Of a stretch of DNA of 64,000 bases, positions 11,771 through 61,269 are shown piece by piece. Positions within the stretch are counted from its first letter, which is position 1, and each line of letters opens with the position of its first letter. Source of the DNA: Gentiana macrophylla (taxonomy: Eukaryota > Streptophyta > Magnoliopsida > Gentianales > Gentianaceae). The notes below the pieces were generated by a model. That model was not told the origin of the DNA. It made no database searches and was given only the letters and a program-made list of their open reading frames with translations. The DNA is taken from positions 76,847,299 to 76,911,298 of the forward strand of contig CM047815.1 in NCBI GenBank assembly GCA_026214975.1, read 5' to 3'. Both the position numbers and the translations under genes were made by a program.

Positions 11771-13598
11771 GTATTTAAACCCTGAAAATTTAATCTCATT
11801 TGGCTGTTATTTTTAAAAACAAAATTCTTAAATTTCTGTATATATATATGTGTAGTATGAATTCAGTGTATGTATGTATCATAAATTGTTGATTTAAATA
11901 AATGGCAGGGGTCCAGGGGTGGCAATGCTAATACTGTCATGGATCATCACACTATTTACCCTATGGCAAATGGTAGAGATGCATGAAATGGTACCAGGCA
12001 AGAGGCTTGATAGGTACCATGAATTAGGGCAGGAAGCTTTTGGTGAGAAGCTAGGTCTTTATATTGTGGTCCTCAACAGTTGGTAGTTGAAGTGAGTACT
12101 TGCATTGTTTACATGGTTACCGGTGGAAAGTCTCTCAAGAAATTCCAACAGATCGTTAGCCCTAATACTCATAACATCAGGCTCACTTACTTCATCATGA
12201 TCTTTGCCTCTGTCCATTTTGTTCTCTCTCATCTCCCCAATTTCCACTCGTTATCCGCCATCTCTTTGTCCGCCGCCGTTATGTCCTTGAGGTACATACT
12301 TACATTTGTTTATTATCGTGTCATCACATCGTGTTATCACATCAAGCTTCGCGCTGTAACAACATTACGCTGCGTGCTTAAGATTTCTTTTGTTTTTGTG
12401 TAGTTACTCGACGATTATGTGGGTAGCATCGGTACAGAAAGGAAGGTTACCGGATGTGAGCTACGGCTGGAAAGAAGATAACACTGGGGACAATGTGTTC
12501 AACTTTTTGAGTGCATTGGGAGGGATAGCATTTGCTTTTGCAGGACATAATGTGGTTCTTGAAATACAAGCAACAATCCCGTCAACACCGGAGAAGCCAT
12601 CAAAGAAGCCTATGTGGAAAGGAGTTATTTGGGCCTATATTATAGTTGCCCTTTGCTACTTTCCAGTTGCAATATTTGGCTATAATTCCTTTGGGAATAA
12701 AGTGGAAGACAACATTTTGATTTCTTTAGAAAAACCTAACTGGCTGATTGCTACTGCTAACTTGTTTGTGGTGATCCATGTCATTGGTGGCTATCAGGTT
12801 CTTTTTCAACTATATGTATGATACGAGTCTTGATACAGACACAACCAGGGACACATCATCTGTACCATTAATCATGATGAGTTCACACCTGATAAAGAGT
12901 TGTGCATGTATCATTGCTCGTATAGTAAATTTCTGACATTTTAGATGCCTTAATGTTTGTTTTGCCGATCTTTTGTTGAAAATGTGCAATAATCAAAACT
13001 TGATTGCAGATTTATGCTATGCCGGTGTTCGACATGTTGGAGACTCTTCTGGTCAAACAACTGAGATTCAAGCCTACAACTACTCTTCGTTTTGTCACCC
13101 GGACCACATATGTTGGTAATGAACTTAAGAGTAATCATACGAGCACACAACAATCATCTGCACCGTTAATCATATTATAAACTAATCATGATCAACAGTG
13201 CAGATCAACATATATACTGTATATTTGACATAGTATATTTTTCATAATTTTTCATAGTATATTTGACAACTAATCAACATTTTTCTTTGTCTTTTTCACA
13301 GCGCTAACAATGCTTGTTGGGATAACAATCCCTTTCTTCGGTGGCCTGTTAGGATTCTTCGGTGGTTTTGCTTTAGCCCCAACCTCCTACTTTGTAAGTC
13401 ATGCTAATTATTATCATCATATCATATACTTTTTATTTATTTATCATAACATAGTAATAATATGTTTGTATAATTTTCTACTATATGTTTTTCAAAATTA
13501 TACATTTTTATTGCAGCTTCCGTGCATTATTTGGCTGAAACTCAAAAAACCAGCCAAGTACAGCATCTCTTGGTTCGTCAACTGGGTAAGTAATTACT

Positions 13599-24634: not shown

Positions 24635-24643
24635 TGTTTTTTC

Positions 24644-26836
24644 GGGATTTTGGAAAATCAGGCATTGTCTCCCCACCCCTCCTTGGAATTAAAGTGGCAA
24701 AATGACCACATTCGTAGAAGCAGGTTTTACGACAATACTATTGTCAGTAAACACCCATAACGACATTATTATCGTCGTAAAACCACCAAATAAGTGAATC
24801 ACGATTAATGGCATAACGAGGACGCTTAACGCCATTATTATCAACGTTAAATATTTAATCGACAATAATATTGGCGTTAAAAATACCTCGCTTAGCGCCA
24901 ATATTTAGTTGTTTGGCAATTCCCTCTATTTCAAAGTTATTTATTTGTGAATTGCTTACCACAAAACAACTCTTAGCTCAACCAAAAACCAAAAAAAAAA
25001 AATTCCAAAAGACTGTGTGTAATCTTCAAGTTTGGTATCATCAAACAAAGAGGCTGCTCCATCAAGGAAGTTCGGCATAGGTAAGTATTAATTGTTTTTT
25101 TGCAATAACTTCATATAATGTAATTTAATGAAAAAAATGATGAAGTCGATGAAAATTGCTTAATAGATTGTTTGTTATTGGCGTTTAGTATTAAGATATA
25201 GGGAAATTGTGTTGAATGATGAAGTTTGTGTAAATTGGTGTGTAAATTGTGATGAACAGAATGATGAAGACGATGAACCAGGTATCGGCGTTAAACAAGT
25301 TTTTACGCCATTATTATTGGCGTTAAACAAGTTTTTACGCAATTAATATTGGCGTTAAAAATGTTATTACGCCATTATTATTGCCGCTAAATATTCTGTT
25401 ACGCCATTATTATTATCGTAAAATTATTTTTTACGCCAATAATAATGACGTAAAAACAGGTTATATTTATTTCATTTTATATTTTATTTTTGGTTGAGAA
25501 AAGCAACTTTTTTGTGATCATATAATGTTTACTATGATTTGATAATTACTTTCACATAAATAGTATGTAATATATTAAGTATAATATATACTAATTATGT
25601 GAAAATGATTATGAAAGTATACTATGAATTTTCACATGATTTCATAATTTTCACATTATCATACGTATAATATATTATATACTCATTATGTGAAAATTAG
25701 GTTTTTCCTTTGTAGTCTTTAGTATAATATTTAATATATTAATTATGCTTTAGACTTTTATCATTTCGTATCTTTAGTATATGTATATAATTGCCTAAGT
25801 ATGATATTTCTAATTTAATGGCTTAGTATATGCATATGCCTAATATTACCGACAATGTAACCTAACTGTATGATCTCAGATATGCATTATTATGTGCAAA
25901 TATGATATTTAATAGCCTTGTATCATATTTAATTCTCGATTGCCTTTAGCCATTTTATCATTTAATATCTTTAGTATATATGAATATAATTGACTTAGTT
26001 TGATTTTTGTAATTTAATGGCTTAATATATGCATATGCCTAATAAGATCGACAAATGTAATCCTAACCAAATACAAAGGAACTCGATTTAAATGATGAAT
26101 AACACATAACGCAAATAAGAACGAACAACGACAATAACATCGACGACTTCCGTCTCGCCTTACGGTGAAAGCCTCCACCCAAAAGCGAGGTTCTTGTAGT
26201 TCAGTTGTTTTCGATTCCACTCCTTCCTTCTCAACAGCTATGGCCTTCCTCATGCCTCGCAAGAAACGAGGTCCTATAGACACTCGTAGAGGATTTGTAG
26301 GTTCTCTTGTTCATCTCTCCACTCAACAACTTTTGGTAAAGCCTCACCGGAAGTGAGGCATCCTCAGATTAGTATTTCAAGAGTTGCTTACTGAATCGTC
26401 CGGCATCTCCATCACTCCTCCCGTGGTTTACTAACAAACAACGCAACTAAATGACACATAACTTAAACATCTAACAACCGCCATACCTTAAACATCTAAC
26501 GACCAAAATTCAACAAAATCACACTAAGATCCAAACAAACAAAACATCACCGTGAATTTGATAATGAATGACTACACTACTTTCCAAACTTATGTATATG
26601 TATATCGTCACGAACGGATATGCACGTGTATGCGCAAAACAGACACTTTCATACACCTAATATCATAAAGGTTCGATATCGTGTGTGTATGTTTGTGTAT
26701 GGTATGTATAAATATATACAAAGACAAACGGATATTGTTTGGATATCGTTTCTCGTGTCGAGTTCATATTCATATCATTCCAAAGTTGTAACATTATATA
26801 TATATATATGTACATTGATATCGTGTTTTGTTTTAG

Positions 26837-26917
<81 letters not shown>

Positions 26918-27069
26918 TTATTTATTTATATTATATGTACTGTTATATATATATACATGGAAATATGCATATAAGTTCACAGTAAATAATTTACACACAT
27001 ATTTTCATATACGGTGTAGCATATGATATTCACAAGAAATAATTTACACACATATTTTTGTTGATTACT
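24644..27069 (+). repeat. Left terminal inverted repeat of the MULE
   Basis: About 2.4 kb matching the reverse complement of 40366-42407 in blocks: the terminus with TTAAAGTGGCAAAATGACCA, the palindrome cluster at 24727-24880 and 25300-25455, the block 26080-26660 (with GCCTCACCGGAAGTGAGGC, itself a hairpin), and the TA-rich inner end to TTGTTGATTA near 27069. An AT-rich stretch at about 25480-26000 is poorly matched and explains the length difference between arms. Open frames at 26014-26356 and 41058-41315 are mirror images of the same arm sequence and are not listed as genes. Confidence 0.85.
26838..26912. repeat. (TA)n microsatellite in the left MULE arm
   Basis: About 37 TA units grading into (TTTA)n. 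A counterpart is found in the right arm at 40485-40583. Confidence 0.95.
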
Positions 27070-27160
27070 TACTTCTAAACGTAAAATTCGGTCGTTCTAT
27101 TTAATTTACACGGTGTAGCCGTGTATGATATTCACAAGAAATAATTTATATTCATATTCA

Positions 27161-27163
<3 letters not shown>

Positions 27164-27249
<86 letters not shown>
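27164..27249. repeat. (TA)n microsatellite just inside the left arm
   Basis: About 43 TA units between the inner limit of the left arm and the transposase start. It is preceded by direct copies of ATGATATTCACAAGAAATAA (27025 and 27126). Confidence 0.95.
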
Positions 27250-27251
<2 letters not shown>

Positions 27252-27444
27252 ATTATATACGTAGAAGTTGTCATTATATTTATATGTATGTGAGTGTACA
27301 ATTACCCTATATATAGATATACACATACACACACTTTTATATAAAAAGCAATATACACACATATGCTTACACGGACCTATTTCAAAGTTTAAAATTACTT
27401 GTGGTTACTGACGAGTGGTTAATGATTTTTTCTCAGGTGACAAC

Positions 27445-30180
27445 ATGTTGGGTATTTCATTTACTTTGAATGGGAAATGGAATCACAAATCCGTAAAGAA
27501 TGGTCTTATTCGAATGGAACCGCTTATATCACTTATGTGAATGTGAATATTTCCTTTGACTTAAATGACGGAGAAAATTTACAAGAGAGCCGGCATTGAT
27601 CCTCTTGGGTATAAGTTGAACATTAAAGCCTTGTACACGACCAGTGGAACACACCAAACGCCTCATGTTGAGATTTTAGACGATGACTCATGGTACGGTT
27701 ACATTTGTGAAAAATTAGCAAATATTCCCGTGAAACTATGTGTTGATGGCAAAAAAGTGGTTAGTTATGATCCTCCGAGAGATATGAATGAGACCATGAT
27801 TGATTTAAATGAGTGCACGATTGATTTAAATGAAGAAAACTACGGTGAAGGTTTTCCCATTAATGATGACAATCTTGTTCGTTGTGCTCAACCAGAGACA
27901 TTCTCAAAGAAGGGTTCCTGATATTTATCCTCTTGATAACGGAAGAGAACGATCGGATCATATGCTAGATTACGGGGTTCTGACACCTTACTCGCCTGAT
28001 CATATACTCAAAGTGAGGTACCAAATACATCATTCATCGAACTACTCGCTTGGTAGCTCCAAATAACCTTATAACAACGCTTACAACATCTCCGACTATA
28101 CCGCTTTGAATACAAGTCGCCGATTACGTGGTGGACCTCAAATTCGAATACAAGTCATAACGCCCACGCATAACGAATTGTACTTGCTCCGACTATTCCA
28201 GCTTCAACCCGCTTTTGGCCTAGGCGGTTCGCTTTTAAACCTTAGTGGTGCACACCATGTTGAGTCCCGACACACATACGGCAAGAGCAATGTGGACGGA
28301 GGGAGTGATTTAGGTGATTTTGGAGACAGCCTTCCACCAATTGAAATACCGCTGCAGCCTCTAGCACAGGACGATTACCATTGAAGACGAAGATGGTTTG
28401 TATGTTGGAAGGTTGTTCAAAAATAAAGATGAGATGCGTGACATATTACGATATCACGCAATGAAGAATAGGTATCGCCAAGTCGAAAAGGTCCGATAAG
28501 GATAAACTCAGATTTGAAATGTAAGCGATCGAATAAATGTGATTGGAAGTTGAATGGTAGAAGGCTCGAGGTGACGATGTCCACTATTTCAAGATAACCG
28601 AGTATGAGGCAAAACATACATGTGGACCGGAAAGCATAACTAATCAAAGATGCTCAAACCACACCTTCTTCTATAGGCCGCTTTGGTAAGGAAACGACAT
28701 TATTGAACTTAAGGGAAAATTTAAAGCAAAGAATGTCCAAGTTATGTGAATAAAGAATTCGGCTTATCCCTTAGTTATGACCAAGCTTATAGATGTATAC
28801 AAGAGTCTTTACGCCTGATTGGTGGAACTCCGCAATGCCTTATACTAAGATGGATGGCTACTTTCACTTGCTTAAAGAAGCAAATGCCGATACATTGACG
28901 GACATGTAAAGGATAGCATGGGTAGGTTCAAGTATTGTTTTATGTCATTGGGACCTAGTATTGTTGGATTCAAGTTTTGTCGCCCCATACTATGCGTAGA
29001 TGGTACTCATTTGAAGAATAAGTATGGAGGGACTTTATTAGTTGTCAGCCGGAGTAGATGCGGGTGATCACTTGTTTCCATTGGCCATTGGCGAGCCGAC
29101 GGTGAGAGTAATGATTCGTGGACGATTTCTTTAACCACTTGAAGAAGGCAATCGGAGAACGTGAGGATCCGGGAGATTTGTCATTTGTCTCGGATAGAAA
29201 TCAGTGCAATCAAGTCTTCCTTGAAAGAGTGTTTCCAGATGCTTACCATGGATATTGCTACCACCACCTTGACATGAACGCCAATGACATTTACGGTAAG
29301 AAAAATATTGTCCAATAACATTGAAGAAAGCAAATTTACACTTGTTCGTAACGGGAATTCAAAATATTGTTTGAAGAGATTAAGCATAAAGATGCGAGGT
29401 TCATACTTATTTGGAGAATGTCGGAGTGAAATATCGGGCAAGGGCACATTTTCCTCGAACGCGATACGCTATCATGACAAACAACTATGCCGAGCTTCAA
29501 CGCTGCATTTCTCGAGGCACGGAATATGAATATAACGAATATGCTTGAATTCGCTAGTAAGACGTTACAACGCTTGGTATCATAAGTGGAGAGAGTTAGC
29601 ATTCGGCCGTAGTAGTGTATTAGCACCGTGGTTGAAACGAAGGTGATGGATACGGTTAATCGTAGAATAAACTTCACGCTTCTATCCCATCGACGCCGCT
29701 GTGTTTCGTGTGTCGAACCTTGATAGCAAAAGATCGAGTTAATCTCTACGACCGTATGCTATTGTAGAGAGTGGCAAGCACATAGGCTCCCATGTGTACA
29801 TGCCGCCGCACCGCCGCAGAACGCCATTTGAACATTTATGACGGATGTCATCCTTATTTCAAAGCGGTGTGCTTCAAACGATTTATGAAGGCCGTGTTTT
29901 CGCCTCGTTGAAGAGCATTGAAACTCCCATATAATGTTCGAACATACGTTATTATTCCACCTATTGAGAGGATAATGTGTCGGTCGACCGGATACGGCAA
30001 GGACGAAAATGAGGCCGTCGTAGAGAACGAAGAGGATACGCTCAAACGGAGAACGTAAAGTCGCCAGATTAGGAGGATACTTTCGTAGGCCGGCGATCAA
30101 AAATGTTCAACATGCGGTCTACCTCGGACATAGAAAAGACAAATGTCCTACACCACTTCATTTGGCCGCCCACTCAATGT
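27445..30180 (+). pseudogene. MULE transposase (MURA/MuDR type), decayed
   Basis: Segments appear in the correct order on the forward strand. An N-terminal part (27565-27920) has IYKRAGIDPLGYKLNIKALY. A MuDR N-terminal domain (PF03108 type) follows near 28390 with GLYVGRLFKNKDEMRDIL. The MULE DDE core has CVDGTHLKNKYGGTLL (first Asp at about 28999) and FVSDRNQCNQVF (second Asp at about 29193), then FPDAYHGYCYHHLDMN. A SWIM zinc finger (CYCREWQAHRLPCVHAA, about 29757-29810) and a CCHC knuckle remnant near 30100 come last. Many frameshifts and stops separate the segments, so no full transposase can be made here. It would have to be supplied by another copy. Confidence 0.85.
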
Positions 30181-30662
30181 ATAGTATAATTTAGATTGTT
30201 AATTTGATGTATGAAAAGACTCACGAGTTTTGCTTTGTCTTTTCGATAACAATGTTCTCGTAATCGTTATGTTTTGCTTAACTTTTGAATGCTTGCATGG
30301 CTATTTAGAATATACTATATCCGCATGGTGTCGTAGCTTTATATATGCCAACCCCCTCCCCACTCCCCCATACTCCCATTCTAGACCCCAATTAATTCAC
30401 GAAAGAAATTGATTCCTCTCCCCAAAAACGAAAAGTTGTAAAAAAACTTCTCACCTAACTAACTATGTAACATCTTTAAAATGACAATGCCATGTTAGTA
30501 GAAAAATACACAAATGATGGAGACATTTTCCTTCAAATTTAGCTAGCACAAGAACACAAAACAAAGGCAATTATCAAGGGTGGTCATGTGATCGTCGAAG
30601 ATCATCCATTACAATTATGTAGTAGAAAGAAAGAAAAAACAAGAAATAATTTAACAAAATGC

Positions 30663-31546
30663 TTAAACAAACCAAGGGTGGTCACTATAGATGACAGGGG
30701 AGGTTTCTGAAGAAATGTCATCCGTGTCATACTCTAGTACGTTAAAATGTCTTGCGATAGCCCTGATAAGAAAATGAAAATAGATATAACCATCACCACT
30801 ACTCTCAAGCGATATGTCACAAATCCTACTAATGATGTAACGTCCAACGTCAACTTCGTAATGGAGAAATGCGTACACCAAAATGTACAAGTCAAATGGC
30901 GGTTCAAGAGTGTGTATAGTACCATAGAGGCTATTGGCGAACCATTTGATCATAACACGCCCCCATTCGGTAGGCGCTGACAAATGAGCAATTATACGCT
31001 GTAATTCACTTAACGCTCAAGCCCCGCTGAAGAAGTCACCGGATGCTTCAACTCCACTTACACCATAGTAGTTATTGATCCACCAACCTCCAAGGCAAAA
31101 TCTACTCCACGATTTTGTGCACCCCGGATGCTATGGCGGAGCACTCGCCAGCTACATTTGACCGACAACCGCATAGAATTCACGAACAATTGATCTATTC
31201 ATAAGTGGATGTCGATGCGGGACTATTTGCGAGGCCCTCCAACGAAAGTCCATGCGATGAGTCTCTTCATCTTGGTAGGTAGACTCTTCAATTCAATTCT
31301 CCTCTCTCCGATAATAGCTCTATCGTTGAAGAGGGTACTCCAATTATGACGCCTTCGCCTGCTTCAACCTCAACCTCGTTGTCTCAAGCTCGCACTCGCT
31401 GTCTCAAGGTCGAAATCACCGAGGAATCAATAACACCCTCCTAGGCCATTAACAAACACAAAGTTGATGAGGATTCCATGGAGGATCCTCATACTCTGGG
31501 AATTTGGTTCATGCCATTCCCGATGAGGGGAAATAGGTTCAGACAT
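30663..31546 (-). pseudogene. MULE cargo b: PF20167-like protein, broken
   Basis: Reverse-strand gene starting near 31546 (MSEPISPHREW) downstream of a TATA-like CTCTATATATACC at 31603-31615, ending at DHPWFV with TAA at 30663. The last 106 codons are open (LYGTIHTLEPPFDLYILVYA, then VDVGRYI and GDGYIYFHFLI). They align with the C-terminus of cargo d (35632-36528) and, less well, cargo c. The N-terminal half is interrupted by several stops and frameshifts. The family match (putative plant transposon protein domain) rests on cargo c and on the ORF at 52151-52997. Function is unknown. Confidence 0.65.
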
Positions 31547-31639
31547 TGTGTATATAATTGAAGTAAAGTAGAAGGTTATGCAGAGGTAGTTTAATAGGTC
31601 ATGGTATATATAGAGTTGACGGTCAATATTATAATGACA

Positions 31640-32310
31640 CATGGATACAGCGACCACACATGGCAGGGAATCTCGTTTGACGACAATACTATCGTCGTCA
31701 GAGTCCATTTGACGGCAATATTATCGTCGTAAAATCATGCACGATCGGTGACAAGACCTCGACACTCGCGCCTACGTGTCCCGCCACGGTCATAAATCAT
31801 CACCACTTGAAGTGTGGGACCCACCGACAATGACCACGCGTGGCGTGGAATCTCGCTTGACGATAATACTTTCGCCGCCGTGAGTCCATTTGAAGACAAT
31901 ACTATCGCCGCCGAGTCCATTTGACGGCAATATTATCGCCGAAAAATCATGCACGATCGCCCGACAAGACCTGGCACTGCGCCTACGTGTCCCGCCACGG
32001 TCATAAATCACCACCACTTCAAGTGTGGGACCCACCGACACCGACCACACATGGCAGGAATCTCGCTTGACGATAATACTATCGCCGCCGAGTCCATTTG
32101 ACGACAATACTATCGCTGCCTGGAGTCAATTTGACGGCAATATTATCGCCGTAAAATCATGCACGATCGCCGACAAGACTCGACACGCGCTCTACGTGTC
32201 CCGCCACGGTCATAAATCACCACCACTTCGGCGTGTGGGACCCACCGACATTGACCACACATGGCGTGGAATCTCGCTTGACGACAATACTATCGCCGTT
32301 AGAGTCCCGA
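31640..32310. repeat. Intergenic repeat array 1 of the MULE
   Basis: Four tandem units of about 178-212 bp, anchored by CACATGGCAGGGAATCTCG-like words near 31653, 31831, 32043 and 32255 and by CGGTCATAAATCACCACCAC. Each unit carries one or more copies of the palindrome TTTGACGACAATA/TATCGTCG. The array sits between the divergent cargo genes b (reverse) and the B3 gene (forward), so it occupies a shared promoter position. Confidence 0.85.
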
Positions 32311-32316
32311 CACCCC

Positions 32317-32370
32317 GCCCTATTCTCCCTATATATACTACGACACATCCCAAATAAGCATACAAGAACG
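32317..32370 (+). promoter_or_regulatory. Core promoter of the MULE B3 gene
   Basis: CTATATATACTACGACACA starts at about 32329, roughly 85 bp before the B3 ATG. More than 45 of the surrounding bases are nearly the same as in front of cargo d at 35519-35577, including the downstream CAAGAACGAACAAT. Conservation between two genes with unrelated coding sequences supports a real promoter and leader. Confidence 0.65.
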
Positions 32371-32416
32371 AACAATTAAAAGAAATTCGCCATTTTTACT
32401 TTTACAAAATAAGCAA

Positions 32417-33256
32417 ATGGATTTTCCAAGTTTCTTTAAAGTTCTTGATGGCGGTTTCGCAACAAGTTTGGTATGTCATTATTAATTAACTTACATTTAT
32501 ATCACTTATATTATGATTGAACCAACATGATATGTTTCTTTTTTCATAGACGCCACTTCCTCAAAGATACTTTAATAGTAGAAGGACACGATGGGGAACA
32601 TAGATATGACCGCTCTCGTGGTCGATTAGTGACATGGAATGTTAGGATTGGAGCCGCAGACAATGGAATTCTTCATTTCTTTGGGGAAGGTTGGGAGGAG
32701 TATGTGGCCGCTCATGACTTGAATGAGGGGGAGTTTATAGTGTTTGAACACAGAGGGGATTTCATTTTCGACACTATTGTGCTGGATCACACTTCTTGTG
32801 AGAAGACTTTTTATGTTTCCGATGGTGAAGAAGATGAGGCAGGTGCAAGTCACCAAAATCCCCATTTTCAGATGACGCTGGCAAACTAGGCATTTTCACA
32901 TGGTTATGTGGTGAGATTTGATCATTTTAGTTGTTTTCTTGTGTATCTTTCATCCTCATTGCAATTTTGTAACAGTATTTAAAATTGTTTGTGATTTGTA
33001 GAATATTCCAATGCCATTTGCTAGAACAAACGACATGTTGCGAAACAAGACAGTCGAACTGCGAATTGCGACAGGGGAATCATGGCGTGCTAGAATTGTA
33101 GCTTTTATTTCAAACTATCAACAAGTTCGTTTAAGCGGGTTGAATGATTTCATTACCAACAATGACCTAAATGTTGGAGATGAATGCACATTTGAAGTCG
33201 TTGATGAACCTATAGAAAATCACGTCGTGTTTAATGTGGTGATTACTAGACATTGA
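32417..33256 (+). CDS. MULE cargo: two-domain B3 DNA-binding protein
   Basis: A REM-like B3 transcription-factor-type protein inside the transposon. Three exons fit: 32417-32470 (MDFPSFFKVLDGG, the typical B3 opening), 32550-32910 and 33002-33256, with GT-AG borders. The first B3 domain shows VTWNVRIGAADNG, then HFFGEGWEEYVAAHDLNEGE and FIVFEHRGDFIF. The second starts NIPMPFARTNDML and has ELRIATGESWRARIV and NDLNVGDECTFEV. B3 domains bind short DNA sites in the major groove. The frame breaks by about one base near 32575 and again before the exon 2 donor, so as printed it is not fully open. Otherwise it is well preserved compared with the transposase. Confidence 0.75.
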
Positions 33257-33799
33257 AGTGCAATTATTAAAAACGTCGTCCTATCCTATTTAAGCCAATG
33301 TATCATTACTCTCTTTCTTTTTAAGTTTGTAAGCCTTGTAATCCCTTGCCAATGTATCATTACTCTTTATTTTTATGTATGTAATCCAATGTAGCATTTA
33401 CACAACAAGTTTTCATTCTACAAAGGTAGTCTAAAGTTGTAAACATAAAAGTAAATAAGACATCATGAAACTAATCGAGACAATGGCATTCAACAAAAAG
33501 ATTTGTCAAGACAAGAACTCATACAACAAAATCACCAACTTTAACAAAGTCTTTTGATTTAACACAATAGAACTATATAGCAAAGAGAGTACAAAGAGGC
33601 TTCCGAGATGAAATCATAAAGCAAAATCCATTATATTTAATTACGAGGAGAAAGAAAAATAATGTGATCATGGAGTCTGTAGACTAAAAAGACAAATCAA
33701 ATCATAAAGCAACATATGCAACTTCAACAAAGTCTACAACTTTCTTCATTGTTAAAATAAAATACATTGCACGTGAAAAATAAACCTTAAAAGTCATCT

Positions 33800-34613
33800 T
33801 GATTAAAAGTTTCGTAGTGATAACGCTCATCACGATCGTATGTCACATCATCTTCGTGAGATATTCCGCACTTCGGCGGACCTCACGCATACATGATGTG
33901 ATGAGATACGGAAAAATATATATCCATCGCCTCGTTGACCTTTGCTATCTGTCGAATCCTCGGAGAGAATATACTCTCCGACGCCAATGTATGATGTGAT
34001 AGATGCATACGCAAGCGCGCATAAATCAAATGTCGGTGCGGTGTAGTTCACCGTGCATACATATTGGTGGCAAGGAACAAAATCAAGAAAGGAAGGAATG
34101 GACCGCACCAGACCAGGGTGAAGGGCGGGTACACCTCACACGCTCCCACGATGCGCCGCCCAAACAAAACAAAATGTCACGTCAGAGTAATTCAGAACAT
34201 CCGAAATAGAAAGAAATCCAAACCCTGTGGATATTCTTGAATGGCATACATCTCGTTGATCATGTATTATCCAAAATGACGGGTACACCTCGCACTGTGA
34301 CACACCGTTCATTGAGCCCTACCGTAGCTACACAAGCGTAGAATTCACGCACAATAGACCGATTCACGTGATGAAAGCTTAATGGGGTTTGGGGGACACC
34401 ATGCCATCCATTATCTCGGAACAAGTTTTTAATCAAACCAGGTAGACTTTCCATATTCAATCGTCTCTCTGGAACAACATCTCTTGACATCCAGTTAGCC
34501 ACGTACTCACGCCTCTCCTCTTCGGTTGTGAAACGGTTTATGAGAGACTCCTCGTCCAACGATAGATCCATTTTGTCATTCGGGATAAACACAGGAGCAT
34601 GCGGGTTAGGCAT
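33800..34613 (-). pseudogene. MULE cargo c: PF20167-like protein, broken
   Basis: It starts at 34613 (MPNPHAPVFIPNDKMDLSLD), about 55 bp downstream of a TATA-like GTCTATATATTA on the reverse strand. The first 117 codons are open and show the family signature: LINRFTTEEERREYVANW, then ERRLNMESLPGL, NGWHGV and NRSIVREFYACVATVG followed by VTVRGVPV. This matches the ORF at 52151-52997 (ERGINFEKIDQF, QGWRKF, VSIVREFYSAL, ISVRGTLIHL). The C-terminal part (34108-33848) keeps GDGYIFF but is frameshifted. Function is unknown; the domain is known from plant transposons. Confidence 0.65.
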
Positions 34614-34699
34614 TGAATATAATAGAGGGGAAATGAGAGGGATGAGTCATTTAATAAATGATCGGTTAATATATAGACTTTTACTTATGGGAAGTCATA

Positions 34700-35480
34700 A
34701 ATGACCCACCGACACCGACCATACATGGCAGGGAATCTCGCTTGACGACAATACTATCGCCGCCACACCATTTGACGGCAATATTATCGTCGTGAAATCA
34801 TGCACGACTGCTGACAGGACCTGATACCGTGCCCATGTGTCCTGCCTACGGTCATAAATCACCACCACTTCAAGTGTGGGACCCACCGACACCGACCACA
34901 CATGGCGTGGAATCTCGCTTGACGACAATACTATCGCCGCCGAGTCCATTTGACGCCAATATTATCGCTGCCTGAGTCCATTTGAACAATATTATCGCAA
35001 AATCATGCACGATCGGTGACAAGACTCGACATCGCGCCCATGTGTCCCGCCACGGTCATAAATCACCACCACTTGAAGTGTGGGACCTACCGACACCGAC
35101 CACACATGGCAGGGAATCTCGTTTGACGACAATACTATCGTCGTCAGAGTCCATTTGACGGCAATATTATCGTCGTAAAATCATGCACGACTGGTGACAA
35201 GACCTGACACTGTGCCCATGTGTCCTGCCTACGGTCATAAATCACCACCACTTGAAGTGTGGGACCCACCGAGACCGACCACACATGGCAGGGAATCTCG
35301 TTTGACGACAATACTATCGTCGTCTGAGTCTATTTGACGGCAATATTATCGTCGTAAAATCATGCACGACTGGTGACAAGACCTGACACTGTAACCATGT
35401 GTCCTGCCTACGGTCATAAGTCACCACCACTTCAAGTGTGGGACCCACCGACAGCGACCACACATGACACGGAATAACTC
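34700..35480. repeat. Intergenic repeat array 2 of the MULE
   Basis: Five units of about 177-204 bp, anchored by CATACATGG/CACACATGG words near 34721, 34898, 35102, 35281 and 35460. The repeat family and internal palindromes are those of array 1. It lies between divergent cargo genes c (reverse) and d (forward), repeating the layout of array 1. Confidence 0.85.
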
Positions 35481-35518
35481 GGATTTGATTAAGATCCCTA
35501 TACCCCATATTCAACTCC

Positions 35519-35577
35519 GCCCTATTCTCCCTATATATACTACGACACAACCCAAATAATCATGCAAGAACGAACAA
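35519..35577 (+). promoter_or_regulatory. Core promoter of MULE cargo gene d
   Basis: CTATATATACTACGACACA at about 35531 lies about 100 bp before the probable ATG (35632). It is near-identical to the promoter of the B3 gene at 32317-32370. Confidence 0.65.
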
Positions 35578-35631
35578 TGGGATGACTCAGAATCTTCGTA
35601 CAAATACATTTGATTACTAGCATCCCACCTC

Positions 35632-36528
35632 ATGTCTAACTCGGATTATTTATTCCCTCTTTGAGTAAACCCGCATGCCCCTATGTTTGATAACGAGGGT
35701 GGGGAAGATGCGTCCTATGACGAGGATACACTCTTAAGTAGGTTCCCTGATGATGGGGATAGACAATATTTCGAGACAAACTGGAATGGTAGAGTCAGAA
35801 TTGCGCAGAGAGGAGGTTATCGTGGGATAGTCTGCCTACACTCTTGAGAGACAGATTACTCAGAATTGGGTGGTCTGGTTTCGCTAACACCCCTGATGCA
35901 AGGGTGAGTATGAATCGGTCTATCGTTCTTGAGTACTATGCAATTGTTCAGAGTGGGATACTTTGGGGGAGGACCGCAAGCACACCGCGAAGCCTCCGAG
36001 GCGTTACCGTTAGTTTGGATGTGGGGGATCAACCGCTACTATGGCATTCCAGAAGTCCCAGACGGTGAAGAATTTTTCAGGCATCATCCTATGATTGCGC
36101 TGGACAATGGGATGGATTTGATGTATGAACTCGCTAATGCATTTGGTGGGACTCATCTTTGGGGTCCTATTGAAAGGACAATTGATGGTTTGGTTGAATA
36201 TATTCCAGCAAGATTAAATGGCGAGTGGGTACGTGTCATGCTTATGTTTCTTGCGAATCGCGTCCATGGTACCATACATCATGTTCAACCAAACTTGGAT
36301 ATGTACATCCTTGCATACGCAGTCTTATATCATCGAGTGAATGTGGGGCGATACATCGTGGATAGGGTTAACAGGATAGCGAGGGGGAGACATGGTGATG
36401 GTTATATCTTTTTCCCATTCCTTATAACGGCAATGGCCAGAAGCTTTGGGGTACCGGATCTTGACACGGATGAAATTATTTGGCAAACACCACCTTTCGT
36501 ATTTAATGATCACCCTTGGTTTATTTAA
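35632..36528 (+). pseudogene. MULE cargo d: PF20167-like protein, frameshifted
   Basis: The probable start MSNSDYLFPL is followed by an early frame change. The next segments (PMFDNEGGEDASYDEDTLLS, then RFPDDGDRQYFETNW) align with the start of cargo c. The last 199 codons are open: YYGIPEVPDGEEFFRHHPMI, GTIHHVQPNLDMYILAYAVL, VNVGRYIVDRV, GDGYIFFPFLI, ending DHPWFI with TAA at 36526-36528. It is the best preserved of the three paralogues and may need only two or three base changes to be open. Its 3' flank (about 36535-36620) resembles that of the B3 gene. Confidence 0.65.
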
Positions 36529-36908
36529 GCAGTGTTCTTATTCTTAAGCGTGTATAATTACTCTTTCTTTTTGCAAGCCCCGTATGTAAGCCAATGTATC
36601 ATTACTTCTTTCTTTTATGTTTGATTTTACTACTTATCATTTCACCGATTAGATCTAAAAACAAACTAAAAATATAGTATAAATATTACAACACCATAAA
36701 TTCAGATAATAAATATCAAACTCCTATATGCCGTGTAAACAGATCTACGGCCATTTTGTTCCGAACCTATGTACGGTTAGATCATTCACCATCTATCCTC
36801 GCCATTTATGATTAAAAGCTCCATAATCTTCAGCCATGAAAATCCCACATAGCTTCCTCGCATATTAAAGCCATAAATTTTGAAATTGAAATGTTCAAAT
36901 TAACAATT

Positions 36909-39871
36909 CTAAATAAGGCCACTCAAAAAAATAAAAAAGTACAATTCTAAATAAGGTTTCATACGTACTAATTTTTCGTCTGCAGGACATTCTTTATCGG
37001 TGAGCAAGATTTCACGAAATGATGGTTGATCCGGATCGAGCATCCATTGTGATTTTTTGCAATCCATCGATCTCGATAATGAAGACTTCATATATCGAGA
37101 TCATTTCTCTATGGTTGGATCTATTAGGTCCGAATTATCTTGTTTGTATCGGGCCGTCGATAAGATGATCGTCCAATCACCGATTGACATGACCACAAGC
37201 ACCCAATGCGGATCGTTAATCGCCCGTATAGCATAAGCGCTTGTTTTCTGGTCCATGCGTAAGCTTCTAACGATAGTCGGTAAGGCGATACCACAACCTA
37301 AATTACCATCCCATTTACCTAATTCGACACAAGAATCCTTGCAAAAGAGGAATAGCACAATCTCGCATGCTTCGATAACATTGGGGTAAACCTCCATACG
37401 AGCAGCGCAGTAGACTCCACATATGCATCAATGTGCTTTGCAAATGGAATGTTTATTACTCGATAAAGATATATGTTACTGTAATTGAGAAAACAACTTT
37501 TAATGAGTTTACCTCGCAAGAAATATAACTATCTCGAGCCTATAAGGTTGTCAAGAAGTCACGGTCCGCAGGGTAATCGAAAGTGTCTCCGCCGATCGAA
37601 TCCCATTTAATAATTGCCGGGTATCACCGCTTTTTTGATGCCACCACCTTCTCGCTTCATTAGATTGCTCGCCGTTACCCCTAAGGAAGCGGTGTGTATC
37701 TACTTAAATCCGGCCGATTTTCTTCGTAATCCGTGACGGTATTCTTCTTCTTACGGATTTCTCGCTGGCTTTGTATTCGGACGGCGGTCATTTTTAAGTT
37801 AACAAAGCAAGCTTACGCCGATCATCTGCATCGACCATCAGATGACTGCACGTGGATACTTGATTGCTGTTATCCGGCACAACGACATTGTATAGCCGAT
37901 TGCTACTAGATGGAAGATTTGTTGGGACTTCAGGAAGGAATACGCCCTACACTTGAAGAGTGGCTTCTTCTTCTATGACTAGATAATCGGGCTCAAATTT
38001 TATGTGAACTATCGCCGGAGGCACTTTCGATCAAAATGAACAGCCCGGGTGTGGTGAATCCAAAAGCCTCGGCCATAGGTGAAGTGGATTGTGTCAAGTT
38101 TGTCGCTTCATGATCAGGCCTTTGACGGGATGTCAATGTTTGATTAGGCATACGCGGCTGTTGTACACCAGGTGTGGAAGTAACTTGTGGCTGGTTCAGT
38201 CCCGCCATAAACCCTGAGCTGCTTTGTCTAGCGCCAGTCCCTGTGTTATTCCCGCCGGTATCAGAAGGCCCCGTCCCATCACTGTTTGGATCCTATAATT
38301 GAAACGACCGAATAAGTTTTTTGTTATGAAAAAATATTATACTTGTTAAAATGTATTTAAATAGGTCAATAAAATCATACCTGGCTACTACGCGCTGCAA
38401 TATCAAATTGATTCAGAATGACGCTGTGATGATTTAACACCTCATCCTGCGCGTCGAGCCTAGCTTTAATGGTATCGAATTCGGCATTCATTCCCTCTTG
38501 GATTTTCTTTGTTGCCGCTTCGATCATCTTACGAACCGCTTCAATTATCGGGTCTACTCGAATAATGTCCCCTCCATCAACAACATTAGTATGGTGCTGC
38601 ACAGGTGACTGGATATGGACATCATCATGATCTTCTCCTTCACCGTCAATTCCTTCATCCCCATTATTGTCATCATCACCTCAGTATCCGCATCCCGGGA
38701 TGTCGATTCATGTCTAATAGTGGAAGGTGCATCGTTATGGTCTAAACGAGGAACATTGATTGAGTAGTGCCTCGCGGTCGTGGCAATTTAGAAGATCCAA
38801 CCGCTTTACGCTTTCCAAGAGCGAGGAGCGCCGCGGCTTGGTCGAACCCCCGCAAGCCGTTGTCGGGCGGTTGTGGAAACGCGCGGCGGGGACATGAAAT
38901 TTGCTCTTCGTGCAGACCGAGGCCACGTGAGAAATTCAACTTCGGTGTTGTCGGTTGTCATACCATCCAACATACCGACTGCACACAAAAATATCAAGAC
39001 ATTTAAAAAATCATTAATCATGGTATTGACATAATCTTAAATGAATTTTATTAAATGGAATGTCATTAATATTACCTCGTGCATAACTTTCGCTTTCCAT
39101 GGTGGCTCCACGCGTGTACTATCCATGCATTTCCATATCAACATCCGGGGGATGGATTCACTGTCAATACGAACACAAAATGGTGGATCGCTTGTTTGCA
39201 AACGTGGGAAAAGTTCATAAGCCCAGTATACTAATGCAAGTGCCCACCACAACCGTGGGCTTGTGGCTGTTTCGATCCTCGCTTTTGTACAATCAAGCGC
39301 TTAACAATCCGCATGAGGTTTGCTATCTTTTCATAAGTAATTCGCCATAAGTACTCCCCCCATGGAAACCCATTTACAATATTCAAATCTTCAACGACGG
39401 AGAATATTTCTTTCGGGATTCCATGACTGTCATTCCACCCTAATAGATATCCATAAATAAAATACACCAAGGCTAACTGTATACAATCTCATCGGTATGA
39501 GCACCGACTCGCACAGATGCTCAAATGCCCTCTCCAAAATTCTTATGGTAATAGCTTGTTTTTTTATATTTTTCCAAGTAACATCCGGGGCCAAAGCACA
39601 TAAAATCACCCGCACCCAAAGTCGGATCAAGATGGCCAAACCGTAAGCCGATATCATGGAGAACTCTCTCCGCCAAACACGCATGTTGTCCCCGGTTACC
39701 AAACCTAAAATGCAGCTCACCAGCCTGGCTGGGGTATATCATGTTGAATCCAATATATCTGAAAATCACCCCACCGAACTTCCACTTATCATGTAGTTCA
39801 TTTGCCTCTATAAATCGCCTAAAAATGGACTTTCTAAACCTGCCTTCAAAATCTACTTCACCAACGCTCAA
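36909..39871 (-). pseudogene. MULE cargo: DUF1985-like and possible Ulp1-like protein, fragmented
   Basis: A reverse-strand, multi-exon gene. The N-terminal part (39871-39040) resembles plant DUF1985: RFGNRGQHACLAERVLHDIG, VNGFPWGEYLWRITYEKI, VYWAYELFPRLQTSDPP. An exon ends at GTTATGCACGAG with a GT donor near 39076, and the next begins near 38980. A linker follows with a helical, coiled-coil-prone region (38602-38375, VRKMIEAATKKIQEGMNAEF) and a Pro/Gln-rich stretch (38208-37993). The C-terminal part (37397-36930) has INDPHWVLVVMSIGDW, resembling the His-Trp strand of C48 (Ulp1-type) cysteine proteases, but I could not place the catalytic Asp or Cys. DUF1985-Ulp1 proteins are known from plant MULEs (Kaonashi/VANDAL-type). 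Several frameshifts are present. Confidence 0.5.
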
Positions 39872-40028
39872 CTTTTTAAAATTGTTAAAACACTTGTCAA
39901 CTTAGCGGATTCCCTTTAAAATTCCAAACTCCTTGAAATGACTCGATGGATCAATTATATACGCCCCGGTGCCTACGAGCTGCATATCACAAAGATAACG
40001 ACTATGCATAAGTATTACATCATATATA

Positions 40029-40204
40029 ACACACACACACATCTATATATATGTGTGTGTGTGTGTGTGTGTATATATATGTGTGTGTGTAAAGGTATAG
40101 ATGTGTGTGTGTATATATATATATATATAGATGTGTGTGTGCATATATATATAGATGTGTGTGTGTGCATATGTATTATATGTGTGTGTGCATATAAATA
40201 TATT
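40029..40204. repeat. (TG)n/(TA)n compound microsatellite
   Basis: Alternating TGTGTGTG and TATATA blocks with repeated GATGTGTGTGTG words adjoin the inner edge of the right MULE arm. Confidence 0.9.
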
Positions 40205-40376
40205 TGTTGATTACGACTTATTATAAATATACGTGAAAGTTGTAATGTATATACATGTACGTATACATATGTCATGTGTATATATATATATACACATGAC
40301 ATATGTATACGTACATATATATACATTACAACTTTCACGTATATTTATAATGAGTCGTAATCAACAAAATATGTGT
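40205..40376. repeat. Near-perfect 172-bp palindrome
   Basis: TGTTGATTACGACTTATTAT at the left end is mirrored by TAATGAGTCGTAATCAACA at the right end. The arms, about 80 bp each, match almost throughout around a central (TA)n. It lies at the junction of the right arm and the MULE interior, so the arm's inner end is present there twice in opposite orientation. Confidence 0.85.
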
Positions 40377-40515
40377 GTAAATTATTTATCATGAATATCA
40401 TACACGGCTACACCGTATATGAAAATATGTGTGTAAATTATTTATCAGAACTTATATGCATATTTCCATGTATATATATGTAATAGTATATATATATATA
40501 TATATATACATACAT

Positions 40516-40586
<71 letters not shown>

Positions 40587-42407
40587 AAAGATATATATAT
40601 ATTTAACAAAGATACGACACGAGTTACGATATCCAATGTACATATATATATAATGTTACAACTTTGGACAAGATGAATATGAACTCGACACGAGAACGAT
40701 ATCCAATGTACATATATACATGACAAAAACAATATCTGCTTGTCATCAGATATATTTATACATACCATACACAAACATACACACACGATATCCGAACCTT
40801 TATGATATTCGTGGTATGAAAGTGTCTGCTTGCACGCATACACGTGCATATCCGCTTCGTGATGTGATACGTATACATAAGTTTGGAAAGTAGTGTAGTC
40901 ATTCATTATCCAAGTTACGGTGATGTTTTGTTTGTTTGGATCTTAGTGTGATTTTGTTGAATTTCGGGTTGTTAGATGTTTAAGGTACGGCGGTTGTTAG
41001 ATGTTTAAGTTATGTGTCATTTAGTTGCGCGTTGTTTGTTAGTAAACCACGGGAGGAGTGATGGAGATGCCGGACGATTCGGCGAAACAAAGACCGAAAT
41101 ACCTAATCTACAGGATGCCTCACTTCCGCCGAGGCTTTACCAAGTCCGCTAAGTGGAGAGATGAACAAGAGAACCTACAAATCCTCTACGAGTCGTCCTA
41201 TAGACCTCATTTCTTGCGTGGCATGAGGAAGGTCATAATCGTGAGAAGGAAGGAGTGGAATCAAAAACAACCTGACCTACAAGAACCTCGCTTTCGGTGG
41301 AGGCTTTCACCGTAAAGCGTAACGGAAGTCATCGATGTTATTGTCGTTGTTCGCTCTTATTTGCGCGTATGTGTTATTCATCATTTCGCGCCGTTGTATT
41401 TGGTTAGGTTACATTTTCAAGACTATTAGGCATATGAATATACTAAGGCAATTATACTCTATAGGCTATTAAATATTAGATTACATTATACTATACTAAG
41501 GCAATTATATTACATATAGGGCTATTAAATATTCATTCAAAAATATAGTAGGTCAAAATATGTTCACACCATTACAACAAGGCTATTAAATTATTATATA
41601 CATTCAAACTATCATTTTTGAATTATATATAATAAACACTAAATATTTTTAATAATAAACGTAACAACAATATTATTGGCGTTAAACATGTGTTTTACGA
41701 CAATATTATTGTCGTTAACATACACTTAATTAACAATAGTATTGTCGTTAAACACATGTTTAACGCCAATAACTTCAATTTTGGCGTAAATGAACCACAT
41801 ATTGGCGTAAAATCACCATTCAAACCAACAACATATCATCGTGTACTTCAGGAAATTCAAAAACAACCCCTAACCCTAACCAATCTACCCCTCTTTACAA
41901 ATTGCACAACAAAAATCGAATCAAATAAAAAAATGACAGATAGAAATTGACATTAACCTCAGGGGCTATCTCCCGTTGTGGAATTTGATCCATTTGTTCC
42001 AAAGGAGCCTCAGAATCCATTGCAAGGACAGATCGTTTTTCTGAGAATTTTTGGAGGATTTTTGCAGAATTGAGATAATTTGGGGGAGATGAAGAGGGAA
42101 CGACAATAATAACATTGAACTGATGATTATTGGCATAACAAAGTATTTTTAACGCCAATATTATTGTCATTAAATATTTAACGTTGATAATAATGGCGTT
42201 AAACATACTTCGTTACGCCAATAATCATCAGTTCACTTATTGGTGGTTTTACGACAATAATAATGTCGTTATGGGTGTGTTTACGACAATAGTATTGTCG
42301 TAAAACCTAACTACGAATGTGGTCATTTTTGCCACTTTAATTCCAAGGGGGGAGGGGGGGGGGGGGAGGGGAGGGTGGGAGGACAAAGCCTGATTTTCCA
42401 AAATCCC
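40366..42407 (-). repeat. Right terminal inverted repeat of the MULE
   Basis: About 2.0 kb matching the reverse complement of 24644-27069. It contains the same palindrome cluster (41660-41760 and 42140-42305). A G-rich run near 42345-42381 corresponds to the CCCCACCCCTCC of the left arm. Confidence 0.85.
40485..40583. repeat. (TA)n microsatellite in the right MULE arm
   Basis: Several TA blocks with short interruptions form the counterpart of 26838-26912 in the left arm. Confidence 0.9.
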
Positions 42408-42679
42408 TGTTTTTTCCCGTCTTTTGGGGATTCATTACTCCGAGAACTTTCCTTACCTTTAAGGAGAAAGAAATTAGAAAATTAGTTACTCATTTAAAGG
42501 TTTTATACAATATGGTAAAGAATTCAGGAGAAATTCGTATGATTATATTCATACACCATATCTAATTATATTTACGTTAACATATTCACTCATCATGTGT
42601 TATAAGGAGAGTGAGGAGTGTGCCCATAATTGGCCACGTGGCCACCCTCTTGGCTTACCACGTGACATTTTTTTCCTTT

Positions 42680-43230
42680 CAAACCTATGTGTTTTTTTTT
42701 CATCAAACGTGTACCGTTAGTAGTGTGTGCAGAGAAGGGAAAAAAAGGAAAGACTGACAGATTTGAAGTTGTGCTATGTAGTGTACGATGGAAGATGAGT
42801 TAAGTTTAGCTATAAAATACAACAACAACAACAACAACAAAAATGGCCGAACAAATATCCGCGCTTACGAAATAGTACAAAGCACGATTACTCTCGTTTT
42901 TAATCAAACCTCTGTGGCTTTTTATTTATGAAATTAACCGCATGTCATTAGTAGTTTGTCTTTGAAATGAAAAAAAAAAAAAAAAAAAAAAAAAGGAAAG
43001 AAAGAACGACGGATTGAAGTTGTGTTGAAATAGTGTCACGATGGAAGATGAAATTAGATTTAAAATATAAAATACAACAACAACAACAAACAACAAAAAA
43101 TGGCGAATAAATATCCGCACTACTAAAATAATACACGCACGCTTATGTTTACACTTGGTTTTTTTTTTATCAAACATTTGTGGGTTGTTTTTATATATAT
43201 TATAAAATCAACCGTGTGCTTTTGATTCTT
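42680..43230. repeat. About 240-bp imperfect tandem duplication
   Basis: Two main copies, about 42725-42960 and 42985-43225, share GGAAAGA, TTGAAGTTGTG, GATGGAAGATGA, AAAATACAACAACAACAAC and AAATATCCGC. The words before copy 1 match the end of copy 2, giving a partial third copy. Each has a (CAA)n tract. It lies 0.75-1.3 kb upstream of the DUF212 gene. From 42417 to 43983 no gene is seen; the last few hundred bases are probably promoter and leader of that gene. Confidence 0.7.
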
Positions 43231-52150: not shown

Positions 52151-52997
52151 TCAAATAGTTGACGAACAACCCGGATTTTCCACTGGTAGCAATCCTCTAC
52201 GATGATCACGAGACGGATATATCTCGTCAGAGGTAAGTTCAGGGACTTCATTCAAATGAACACACAATCTTGAAATCAACCAGGCAAAAGGCATCGGCCT
52301 TCCATCATTATATCGCTTCATCGCAAAGTTTCTTTGCCGTCTTAAAAATCAAAATTCCCCAATCCACATGAGCTCCGCTTATCAACGCAAACAACAAAAG
52401 TATCTCACTATCACTAACCCACGCAAAGTCACTAGTCGGATAGACTCGCGAGTTAATGAAGCGTTTCCATGCTCTCAGATGAGCAGGTAGAGCGGAAGTG
52501 GTAGAATCATAATTTTGATCGAACTCTGAAAACAAATACGGAAAAGCTTCCGTGACATAGTTAACAACGTGACAAGAGTTCTCTAATGTCCATTGATATT
52601 CATAATGAAGATTATGGATTTGATTGAAAATCGGTATTTCGTAGATATGATTTATAATATGAGGTGACAGGTGAATAAGTGTACCACGAACAGATATAAG
52701 CTGTGACGGATCTACCGTAGTAACAGTAGAAAGAGCTGAATAAAATTCCCTAACAATAGAAACATTAATTCTTCCTCGAGGATGCTTAACAAATTTTCTC
52801 CATCCTTGATTCTGAATTAAATCCCTTCCGAACTGATCAATTTTTTCAAAATTGATACCCCTTTCTACCAATATTGGAGAATTTGCAAACCTCGCATTCA
52901 CCAACAAATTAACATTTGAAGCGCTAGATTCCGGGACAAAAACATCTATTGCCTCCGGATCGTATGAATTAACTGATGGTGATGATCGGTTTGACAT
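52151..52997 (-). CDS. Retroelement ORF: PF20167-like transposon protein
   Basis: The chosen start is MSNRSSPSVNSYDPEAIDVF at 52997, because the 47 codons upstream look like leader. The body has the family order NARFANSPILVERGINFEKI, QGWRKFVKHP, VSIVREFYSAL, LISVRGTLIHLSPHIINHIY, HLRAWKRFINSRVYP, and LFALISGAHVDWGILIF. One frame slip near 52310 leads into NDGRPMPFAWLISRLC and an end near 52151. It is nearly intact. Relatives are common in Athila/Tat-type retroelements and, in this window, inside the MULE. Function is unknown. Confidence 0.65.
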
Positions 52998-53569
52998 TTT
53001 AGTTGAAACAGATGAAAACAATTTAACAGATAGAAAGGTGAAAGTAACTGAGTGAATTTGCATGTTTTTCACTCTCAGCTGGCTTTCCTTAAATGGACAA
53101 AATTGAGAGTGTACGTGTCTGCATATTAACACTCTCAATCATGACTAAGCAATTTAACTCCCGGATCGATCCTGAAAATGACCGGACCGGTCCGGCTTTA
53201 AGATATTTTTACCGTGTGAAGGTTGTAAAATTCAAGTTCTCTTTGTTTATCTTTAATAGGCTCATGGCTATTAGAGTTTAAAATAAAACATATCTAAATG
53301 ATACGGATAAACGATACATGAATTATATTTTAAAAACGACATACGAAAATATTTTTTTTTCTTAAATTTTTGATAACATATTTAAATACTATTAAAAGTG
53401 ATTAATTTTACTACTACGACATAAAATGATTATGAAAACGACAAACTATTAGATTAGCAAACTTAGTATTTAAAATGCAGAAAATAAAATAAACAGATAG
53501 AAAATGTTTAAAACTAACAAAGTTGTACGAAATCAAATAATGTCAACATCATCATCCTCAGCTGGATAA

Positions 53570-57920: not shown

Positions 57921-58020
57921 NNNNNNNNNNNNNNNNNNNNNNNNNNNNNNNNNNNNNNNNNNNNNNNNNNNNNNNNNNNNNNNNNNNNNNNNNNNNNNNN
58001 NNNNNNNNNNNNNNNNNNNN
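57921..58020. other. Assembly gap of 100 N
   Basis: Exactly 100 N, a conventional scaffolding spacer of unknown true size. A reverse-strand Athila element ends at its left and a forward-strand Tat element begins at its right. The two flanks may not be adjacent in the genome. Confidence 0.98.
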
Positions 58021-61000: not shown

Positions 61001-61269
61001 GCTCATCCTATTGTGGTAGTCACTGACCAACCACTAAAGCAGATACTGGCAAAACCCGACACTTCAGGTCGACTGGCGAAATGGGTGATAGAAATGGCCC
61101 GATGATTTACATCGAGTTCTGCCTCGAGCTGCGATAAAAGCCGTGAGGCCTTGGCGATTTTTTTACGAAGGATCTCGGTCCAACTCGATCAGGAAAAGCG
61201 AAGTCCAGAAGAAAAATGGACTCTTCAAGTCGATGGAGCATTGAGTAAGGAGGGGGCTGGAGCAGGGCT
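58021..61269 (+). pseudogene. Tat-lineage gypsy gag-pol, truncated at both ends
   Basis: The forward strand starts in gag (IEPYDGTTDTEDHLHV near 58035, then FETLLVGRAREWF and VMEYLKRFNLEAMRV). A protease-like region follows at about 59280-59560 (NIIYHSAFQAMKL). The reverse transcriptase is at 59767-60519 (LVKKPDGSWRMCVDFTDLNK, MPFGLKNAGATYQRA, catalytic YVDD near 60390). RNase H is at 60640-61105 (FHWDDECQTAFEELKAYLSE, then LLVYLAVCEEAVSAVLVREG). A second, archaeal-type RNase H opens at WTLQVDGALSKEGAGAGLV, the Tat-lineage hallmark, and stops at the LTR-like junction. Gag and pol are split by several frameshifts. Confidence 0.8.

Follow-up and report, generated by a model that had tools for sequence, protein, structure and literature searches.

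Anti-silencing by plant transposons, in the literature that we found, is described for the VANDAL group, whose ends are degenerate. There, VANC proteins bind arrays of a motif in the noncoding parts of their own family and induce a loss of methylation (PMC5735166, PMC10398659). VANC proteins contain DUF1985, and VANC21 has been described to accumulate where motifs are dense, in introns and in noncoding DNA between genes and at the termini (PMC5735166), while KIU elements with VANC-Ulp1 genes act likewise according to a review (PMC13317346). Here we describe a decayed 17,764-bp Mutator-like element (MULE) in a 64,000-nucleotide stretch of Gentiana macrophylla DNA (contig CM047815.1, positions 76,847,299 to 76,911,298; hereafter the window, whose numbering is used throughout), and report that a 17-bp palindrome, counted with up to two mismatches, recurs in its arms and intergenic regions but is absent from the rest of the window. 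We propose, with moderate confidence and by analogy with VANC, that these palindromic sites were targets of an activator or anti-silencer encoded by the element itself, which suggests that the element may once have carried its own on-switch against plant silencing.

Like VANDAL and KIU elements, the gentian element combines a MURA-like transposase with a putative DUF1985-type gene, the latter scoring below the Pfam cut-off here, and as in VANDAL elements tandem arrays of one short motif lie in terminal and intergenic noncoding regions, where all 33 sites (33/33) are found. Unlike VANDAL and KIU elements, it also has a B3 gene, three Transposase_32-like genes and a duplicated divergent cassette, and no Ulp1 match was found in it. 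The VANDAL21 motif YAGTATTAY occurs exactly only once in the element and three times in the window, short of the high density that marks VANDAL21; at one mismatch there are 44 occurrences in the four noncoding stretches that hold the palindrome and 97 in the window. One form of the palindromic site agrees with YAGTATTAY at 8 of 9 positions, yet 111 of 5000 shuffled palindromes come equally close, and we therefore rejected identity with the VANC21 motif and take the likeness as a hint only. VANC6 motifs showed no clear enrichment. On these comparisons the VANC system of VANDAL elements appears to be the nearest known one, and we do not claim VANDAL membership. If the proposal is true, a long-armed MULE with a like layout of control sites, and with a different site and different passengers, would suggest that transposons evolved or remade self-protection more widely. 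The locus would then offer a directly testable site together with candidate proteins.

The element is bounded by the single pair of identical inverted 20-bp ends in the window (24644-24663 on the plus strand and 42388-42407 on the minus strand). The terminal sequence GGGATTTTGGAAAATCAGGC has one occurrence per strand, allowing up to three mismatches revealed no further end anywhere in the window, and 100 shuffles returned none; an exact search for it in viral and prokaryote contig collections gave no match, which is uninformative on copy number. A perfect 9-bp target-site duplication, TGTTTTTTC, directly adjoins both termini (24635-24643 and 42408-42416). This 9-mer is T-rich and has two additional plus-strand positions in the window (56841 and 57218); however, among the 977 inverted 12-mer pairs that passed a low-complexity filter, only the pair at 24644/42407 is flanked by an exact 9-bp direct repeat, and 20 dinucleotide shuffles produced no inverted 12-mer pair with a flanking 9-bp repeat. 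Inverted ends with a duplication in the 8-11-bp range given for MULEs (PMC6446971) are thus present.

The inverted arms measure 2.41 kb on the left (24644-27053, plus strand) and 2.04 kb on the right (42407-40371, minus strand), and their identity is patchy. An outer block (about 24644-24910 in the left arm) is 86.7% identical over 264 aligned columns. The inner block of about 1.05 kb, which begins at 26018, is 85.0% identical by blastn over 1115 columns (26018-27068 against 41450-40357), and 90.5% identical over 770 aligned columns when most of its AT tract is left out. Between them, the arm middle (left 24919-26011) shows 44-64% identity in 7 of 11 blocks of 100 columns; the remaining four reach 78-94% but with only 18-50 aligned columns each. 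By eye, the innermost part of the right arm also holds a large hairpin-like inverted repeat (40205-40368) amid AT/TG microsatellites.

Between the arms lies a broken MURA-like transposase (28401-29828, plus strand), of which nine fragments in different frames were recognised by eye. The frame changes at 7 of the 8 joins, and at two of them the gap, of 2 and 8 bp, leaves no room for an intron. When the conceptual translations of the fragments were chained, with X at the joins, they matched the Pfam families MULE (29.4 bits, E value 1.1e-6, curated cut-off 27.6) and SWIM (22.0 bits, E value 1.2e-4, curated cut-off 19.6), so that a MULE domain together with a SWIM zinc finger is found on the chained fragments; a single transposase open reading frame (ORF) scored 22.7 bits against MULE, below the cut-off. 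Nearby, an N-terminal-looking ORF (27565-27921) and a zinc-knuckle-like remnant (about 30024-30194) were seen by eye only. A Pack-MULE, which carries host gene fragments without a transposase, is ruled out by these transposase remnants. An earlier, sequence-only reading of this DNA had proposed one Mutator-like transposition unit with identical 20-bp termini, a perfect 9-bp duplication and inverted arms of 2.0-2.4 kb. The termini and the duplication proved to be as described; the arm lengths stand, but the arms are not one continuous repeat since their middle matches poorly. That the 17,764 bp form one decayed Mutator-like DNA transposon is, from the sequence, well supported by the ends, the duplication, the MULE and SWIM matches, and a site motif common to arms and interior.

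That motif, missed in the sequence-only reading, is the 17-bp palindrome CGNCAWTANTAWTGNCG. The window holds 33 matches to it with no more than two mismatches, every one within four noncoding stretches of the element that total 7,181 bp: the left arm (10 sites), two divergent intergenic regions (8 sites each) and the right arm (7 sites). The element has none in its 10,583 bp beyond these stretches, and the window has none outside the element. By chance far fewer are expected, with an average of 0.7 sites in 10 whole-window shuffles and of 0.63 matches for 150 permuted palindromes (largest 4). With up to three mismatches allowed the window contains 42 matches where chance would give 8.8; the element accounts for 39 of the 42 and the four stretches for 36. 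The shorter motif ACG[AC]CAATA occurs 28 times in the window with 28/28 in the same four stretches. Nine of the ten left-arm sites lie at 24730-25450, where a tandem array with a 32-bp period spans 25283-25438, and the tenth is at 26129; those of the right arm fall within 41665-42300. Intergenic region 1 (31536-32417) lies between a Transposase_32-like remnant on the minus strand (T32a) and the B3 gene on the plus strand, and carries a repeat unit of about 210 bp in three copies (31676-32298); intergenic region 2 (34647-35630), built of units of about 179 bp, separates two further such remnants, T32b on the minus strand and T32c on the plus strand. Both are candidate divergent control regions.

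Exact sites number seven, all in the arms, and the 16 intergenic sites differ from the palindrome by one base (12) or two (4). Where sites follow each other at 32 bp, the intervening 15 bp of arms and arrays agree at only 41% (48% when the better strand is taken), while the sites themselves are 74-76% alike, a figure raised by the fact that the pattern selected the sites. Because of the exact arm sites and the many intergenic sites one base off, we conclude that arms and interior share one site. Across the 33 sites columns 7, 8 and 11 are invariant, and CG is retained in the left half of 30, in the right half of 29 and on both sides in 26. Site spacing is 29-33 bp in 18 of the 32 gaps, about three helix turns, and 146-147 bp in four, although much of this regularity is a consequence of tandem duplication. 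The intergenic sites (31681-32298 and 34746-35354) come in pairs 30-33 bp apart, some of them separated by 146-147 bp; this may be chance. A length of 146-147 bp is close to that of nucleosomal DNA.

Furthermore, every gene remnant is preceded, in noncoding DNA, by a palindrome cluster: the left-arm cluster lies upstream of the transposase, the right-arm cluster upstream of the DUF1985-like gene, and the arrays separate T32a from B3 and T32b from T32c. This distribution fits gene regulation better than end recognition alone. We hypothesize that, during the active life of the element, a protein that it encoded would have bound the palindromes, as a dimer given the symmetry of the site and perhaps on one face of the helix given the spacing, in a cooperative manner along the arrays. 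Once bound, it would have kept host DNA methylation from shutting down the promoters of the element, which is what VANC proteins do in VANDAL elements, and the same protein may also have presented the ends to the transposase.

Several observations weigh against this proposal. The sites are known from a single decayed copy, and the palindrome pattern was defined after viewing both the arms and the arrays. The intergenic arrays are copies of each other and so amount to about one independent case; arm and array stretches of 59-63 bp align at 71-79% by blastn, so an arm repeat may be the simple origin of the arrays. Between the arm sites and the first ORFs of the two outer genes, transposase and DUF1985-like, there are about 1.4-2.8 kb, a long distance for promoter sites, and the DUF1985 match itself (24.0 bits, E value 4.3e-5) is below the Pfam cut-off of 35.1. 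Retained CpG was considered as a sign of protection, with observed/expected ratios of 1.13-1.46 in the four stretches compared to flank values of 0.73 (left) and 1.01 (right); we dropped it because the transposase (1.17) and DUF1985-like (1.11) stretches keep CpG too, T32c and B3 being at 0.77-0.78. Finally, VANDAL ends are described as degenerate (PMC10398659), whereas this element has identical 20-bp ends and long arms, and the VANC21 motifs, YAGTATTAY in VANDAL21, are described in one orientation (PMC5735166), whereas the 17-bp site here is palindromic.

The palindromes might instead be subterminal, transposase-binding sites that spread inward by duplication and had no role in silencing, which we regard as possible but doubtful. 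As with TnpA of Spm/En, a single DNA-binding protein would then act in transposition by way of site arrays in the arms. Of the 33 sites of the present element 17, including all 7 exact ones, are in arms. Long Mutator ends are also described to harbour both transposase-binding sites and promoters (PMC3310237). However, the other 16 sites are intergenic, located 7.0-7.7 kb from the nearer end between divergent gene remnants, where they are not needed for end recognition.

The build of the interior bears on how the sites came to be where they are. Intergenic regions 1 and 2 are same-orientation copies of each other (79% over 785 columns by blastn), and their seven array units share 84-94% identity, whether compared inside one region or across both, while the T32 paralogues around them reach 58-66% at the DNA level in the parts that blastn aligns. 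In addition, B3 and T32c are alike at or just past their stop codons (63% of 218 columns, E value 2.5e-9), the shared 3' flanks being at 33264-33472 for B3 and 36521-36722 for T32c, both on the plus strand. The simplest reading of these sequences is that the interior would be a duplicated divergent cassette in which B3 occupies the position held by T32c in the other copy: a cassette probably duplicated within the element, with a B3 gene or a Transposase_32 gene in the corresponding place, and with the control region and the 3' flank in common. The swap may have run in either direction (B3 for a Transposase_32 gene, or the reverse), a single copy being compatible with both. The arrays would evolve in concert as the adjacent coding paralogues diverge, and control regions that remain alike while genes diverge fit the joint evolution of repeat units that has been described for VANC targets (PMC5735166).

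A more specific version of our proposal, which we put forward only tentatively and consider rather unlikely as a whole, is that of a MULE with a self-built regulatory network. The palindrome would have spread by concerted evolution upstream of all genes, the divergent cassette would have been duplicated, and a captured host-type B3 protein would have read the sites as an anti-silencer or activator, replacing VANC or acting beside it.

By comparison, we consider it improbable that the internal arrays are plain, satellite-like tandem duplications whose likeness to the arms reflects functionless descent from one repeat. The array regions are indeed tandem at 31-33 bp and at about 180-210 bp, and the arm and array stretches of 59-63 bp that blastn aligns hold two sites each. 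Such descent sits poorly with the three columns that are invariant in all 33 sites, with CG on both sides in 26 of them, with the contrast between inter-site DNA (41-48% alike) and sites (74-76%, raised by pattern selection), and with the absence of sites from the remaining 10,583 bp of the element. Very unlikely is a composite or macrotransposon, in which two MULE ends moved unrelated host DNA, or an unrelated inverted duplication, since, although the arms are patchy, one passenger is a host-type B3 gene, Transposase_32 is described also in an Athila-type retrotransposon of sunflower (PMC11728184) and another Transposase_32 ORF lies elsewhere in the window, the window has no further end even when up to three mismatches are allowed, the single 9-bp duplication is at the outermost ends, and the interior sites are common to both arms.

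Turning to the genes that the element carries besides its transposase, we found three Transposase_32-like remnants, one two-domain B3 gene and one DUF1985-like gene, arranged as two divergent pairs and one leftward gene. T32a (30652-31347, minus strand) includes an ORF at 30666-31016, T32b spans 33850-34646 on the minus strand, and T32c (35629-36528, plus strand; longest ORF 35914-36525) has a reading frame that shifts along its length. Their Pfam Transposase_32 scores, from 15.9 to 24.5 bits, are all under the 45-bit cut-off; by tblastn, T32a and T32c are 51% identical over 101 residues, and T32b and T32c 33-42% in pieces. A fold of T32c predicted from an alignment of four window sequences had a mean predicted local distance difference test score (pLDDT) of 38.4. 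A further Transposase_32 ORF (52311-53138, minus strand, Pfam E value 1e-15) lies outside the element and is a distant relative, 29% like T32b.

The B3 gene (32418-33256, plus strand) has ORFs at 32521-32886 and 33002-33253 and, by eye, a putative first exon at 32418. Its two B3 domains (E values 2.9e-8 and 1.8e-9) are the sole passenger matches above the Pfam cut-off. By eye it looks the least damaged of the remnants; an intact gene was rejected, as the exon phases at the putative introns do not fit by eye. The DUF1985-like gene (36909-39901, minus strand) is in three fragments with two frame changes, its DUF1985 match lying inside 39488-39234. Within it, the stretch 37427-37104 on the minus strand resembles Ulp1 by eye; it matched no Pfam family at an E value of 10 or less and no PDB sequence at 1 or less, a single-sequence fold model (mean pLDDT 38.9) gave no support for Ulp1, and we leave it as a likeness by eye only. 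DUF287 had no match in 33 Pfam queries (26 from the element, partly overlapping; E limits 0.1, 1 or 10). The sequence-only reading had counted at least five genes besides the transposase: five are recognised by domain evidence, but only B3 reaches its Pfam cut-off and at least two of the five, T32c and the DUF1985-like gene, are broken. Because the transposase, the DUF1985-like gene and T32c carry frame changes, the passengers look like a decayed gene set rather than a working load. Among them only B3 looks host-type, Transposase_32 and DUF1985 being transposon-associated domains. In the literature covered, outside of which most subscription papers fell, we found no MULE that combines B3, Transposase_32 and DUF1985.

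Other multi-gene or long-ended MULEs share part of this organisation. The Ulp1-MULEs of grapevine likewise have 9-nt duplications and a MURA-like transposase with a further gene in either orientation, and Ulp1-carrying MULEs are cited in the same source also for melon, rice and Arabidopsis (PMC2528002); unlike the grapevine elements, the gentian element has more genes and only a by-eye likeness to Ulp1. Abermu, from cereals and other plants, is a MULE that similarly carries several genes, one of them on the opposite strand, with duplications mostly of 9 bp and ends beginning GGG, but it is about 8 kb long with 138-145-bp ends and three ORFs (PMC9168764). Repeated motifs inside long ends are described for one family among the tandem-end MULEs, which are reported from tomato and Arabidopsis with a few in rice and maize (PMC3310237); there, whole ends are repeated and the elements are mostly non-autonomous, whereas the repeated unit of the gentian element is a short site, found in its ends as well as between its genes. 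Surveyed MULE ends are given as 14-500 bp, with one of 640 bp in a table (PMC6446971), and an 8-kb barley element with 138-145-bp ends was called larger than other MULEs (PMC9168764). At 17.8 kb and with arms of more than 2 kb, the gentian element is well outside the figures of these two sources, to which this comparison is limited, and illustrates the size that a MULE can attain as a unit of several genes.

A scan of the window for Rfam families at gathering scores and for tRNAs with the bacterial code gave no match. Elsewhere in the window, retrotransposon pieces with reverse transcriptase and RNase H domains, of Ty3/gypsy type by eye, lie at 59677-61102, near a 100-base N gap (57921-58020). 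Left of the element is an ordinary host gene, a partial amino acid transporter (12360-12818, plus strand; Aa_trans, E value 8.4e-33), and immediately to its right, at 42740-43194, is a direct repeat of about 200 bp (75%).

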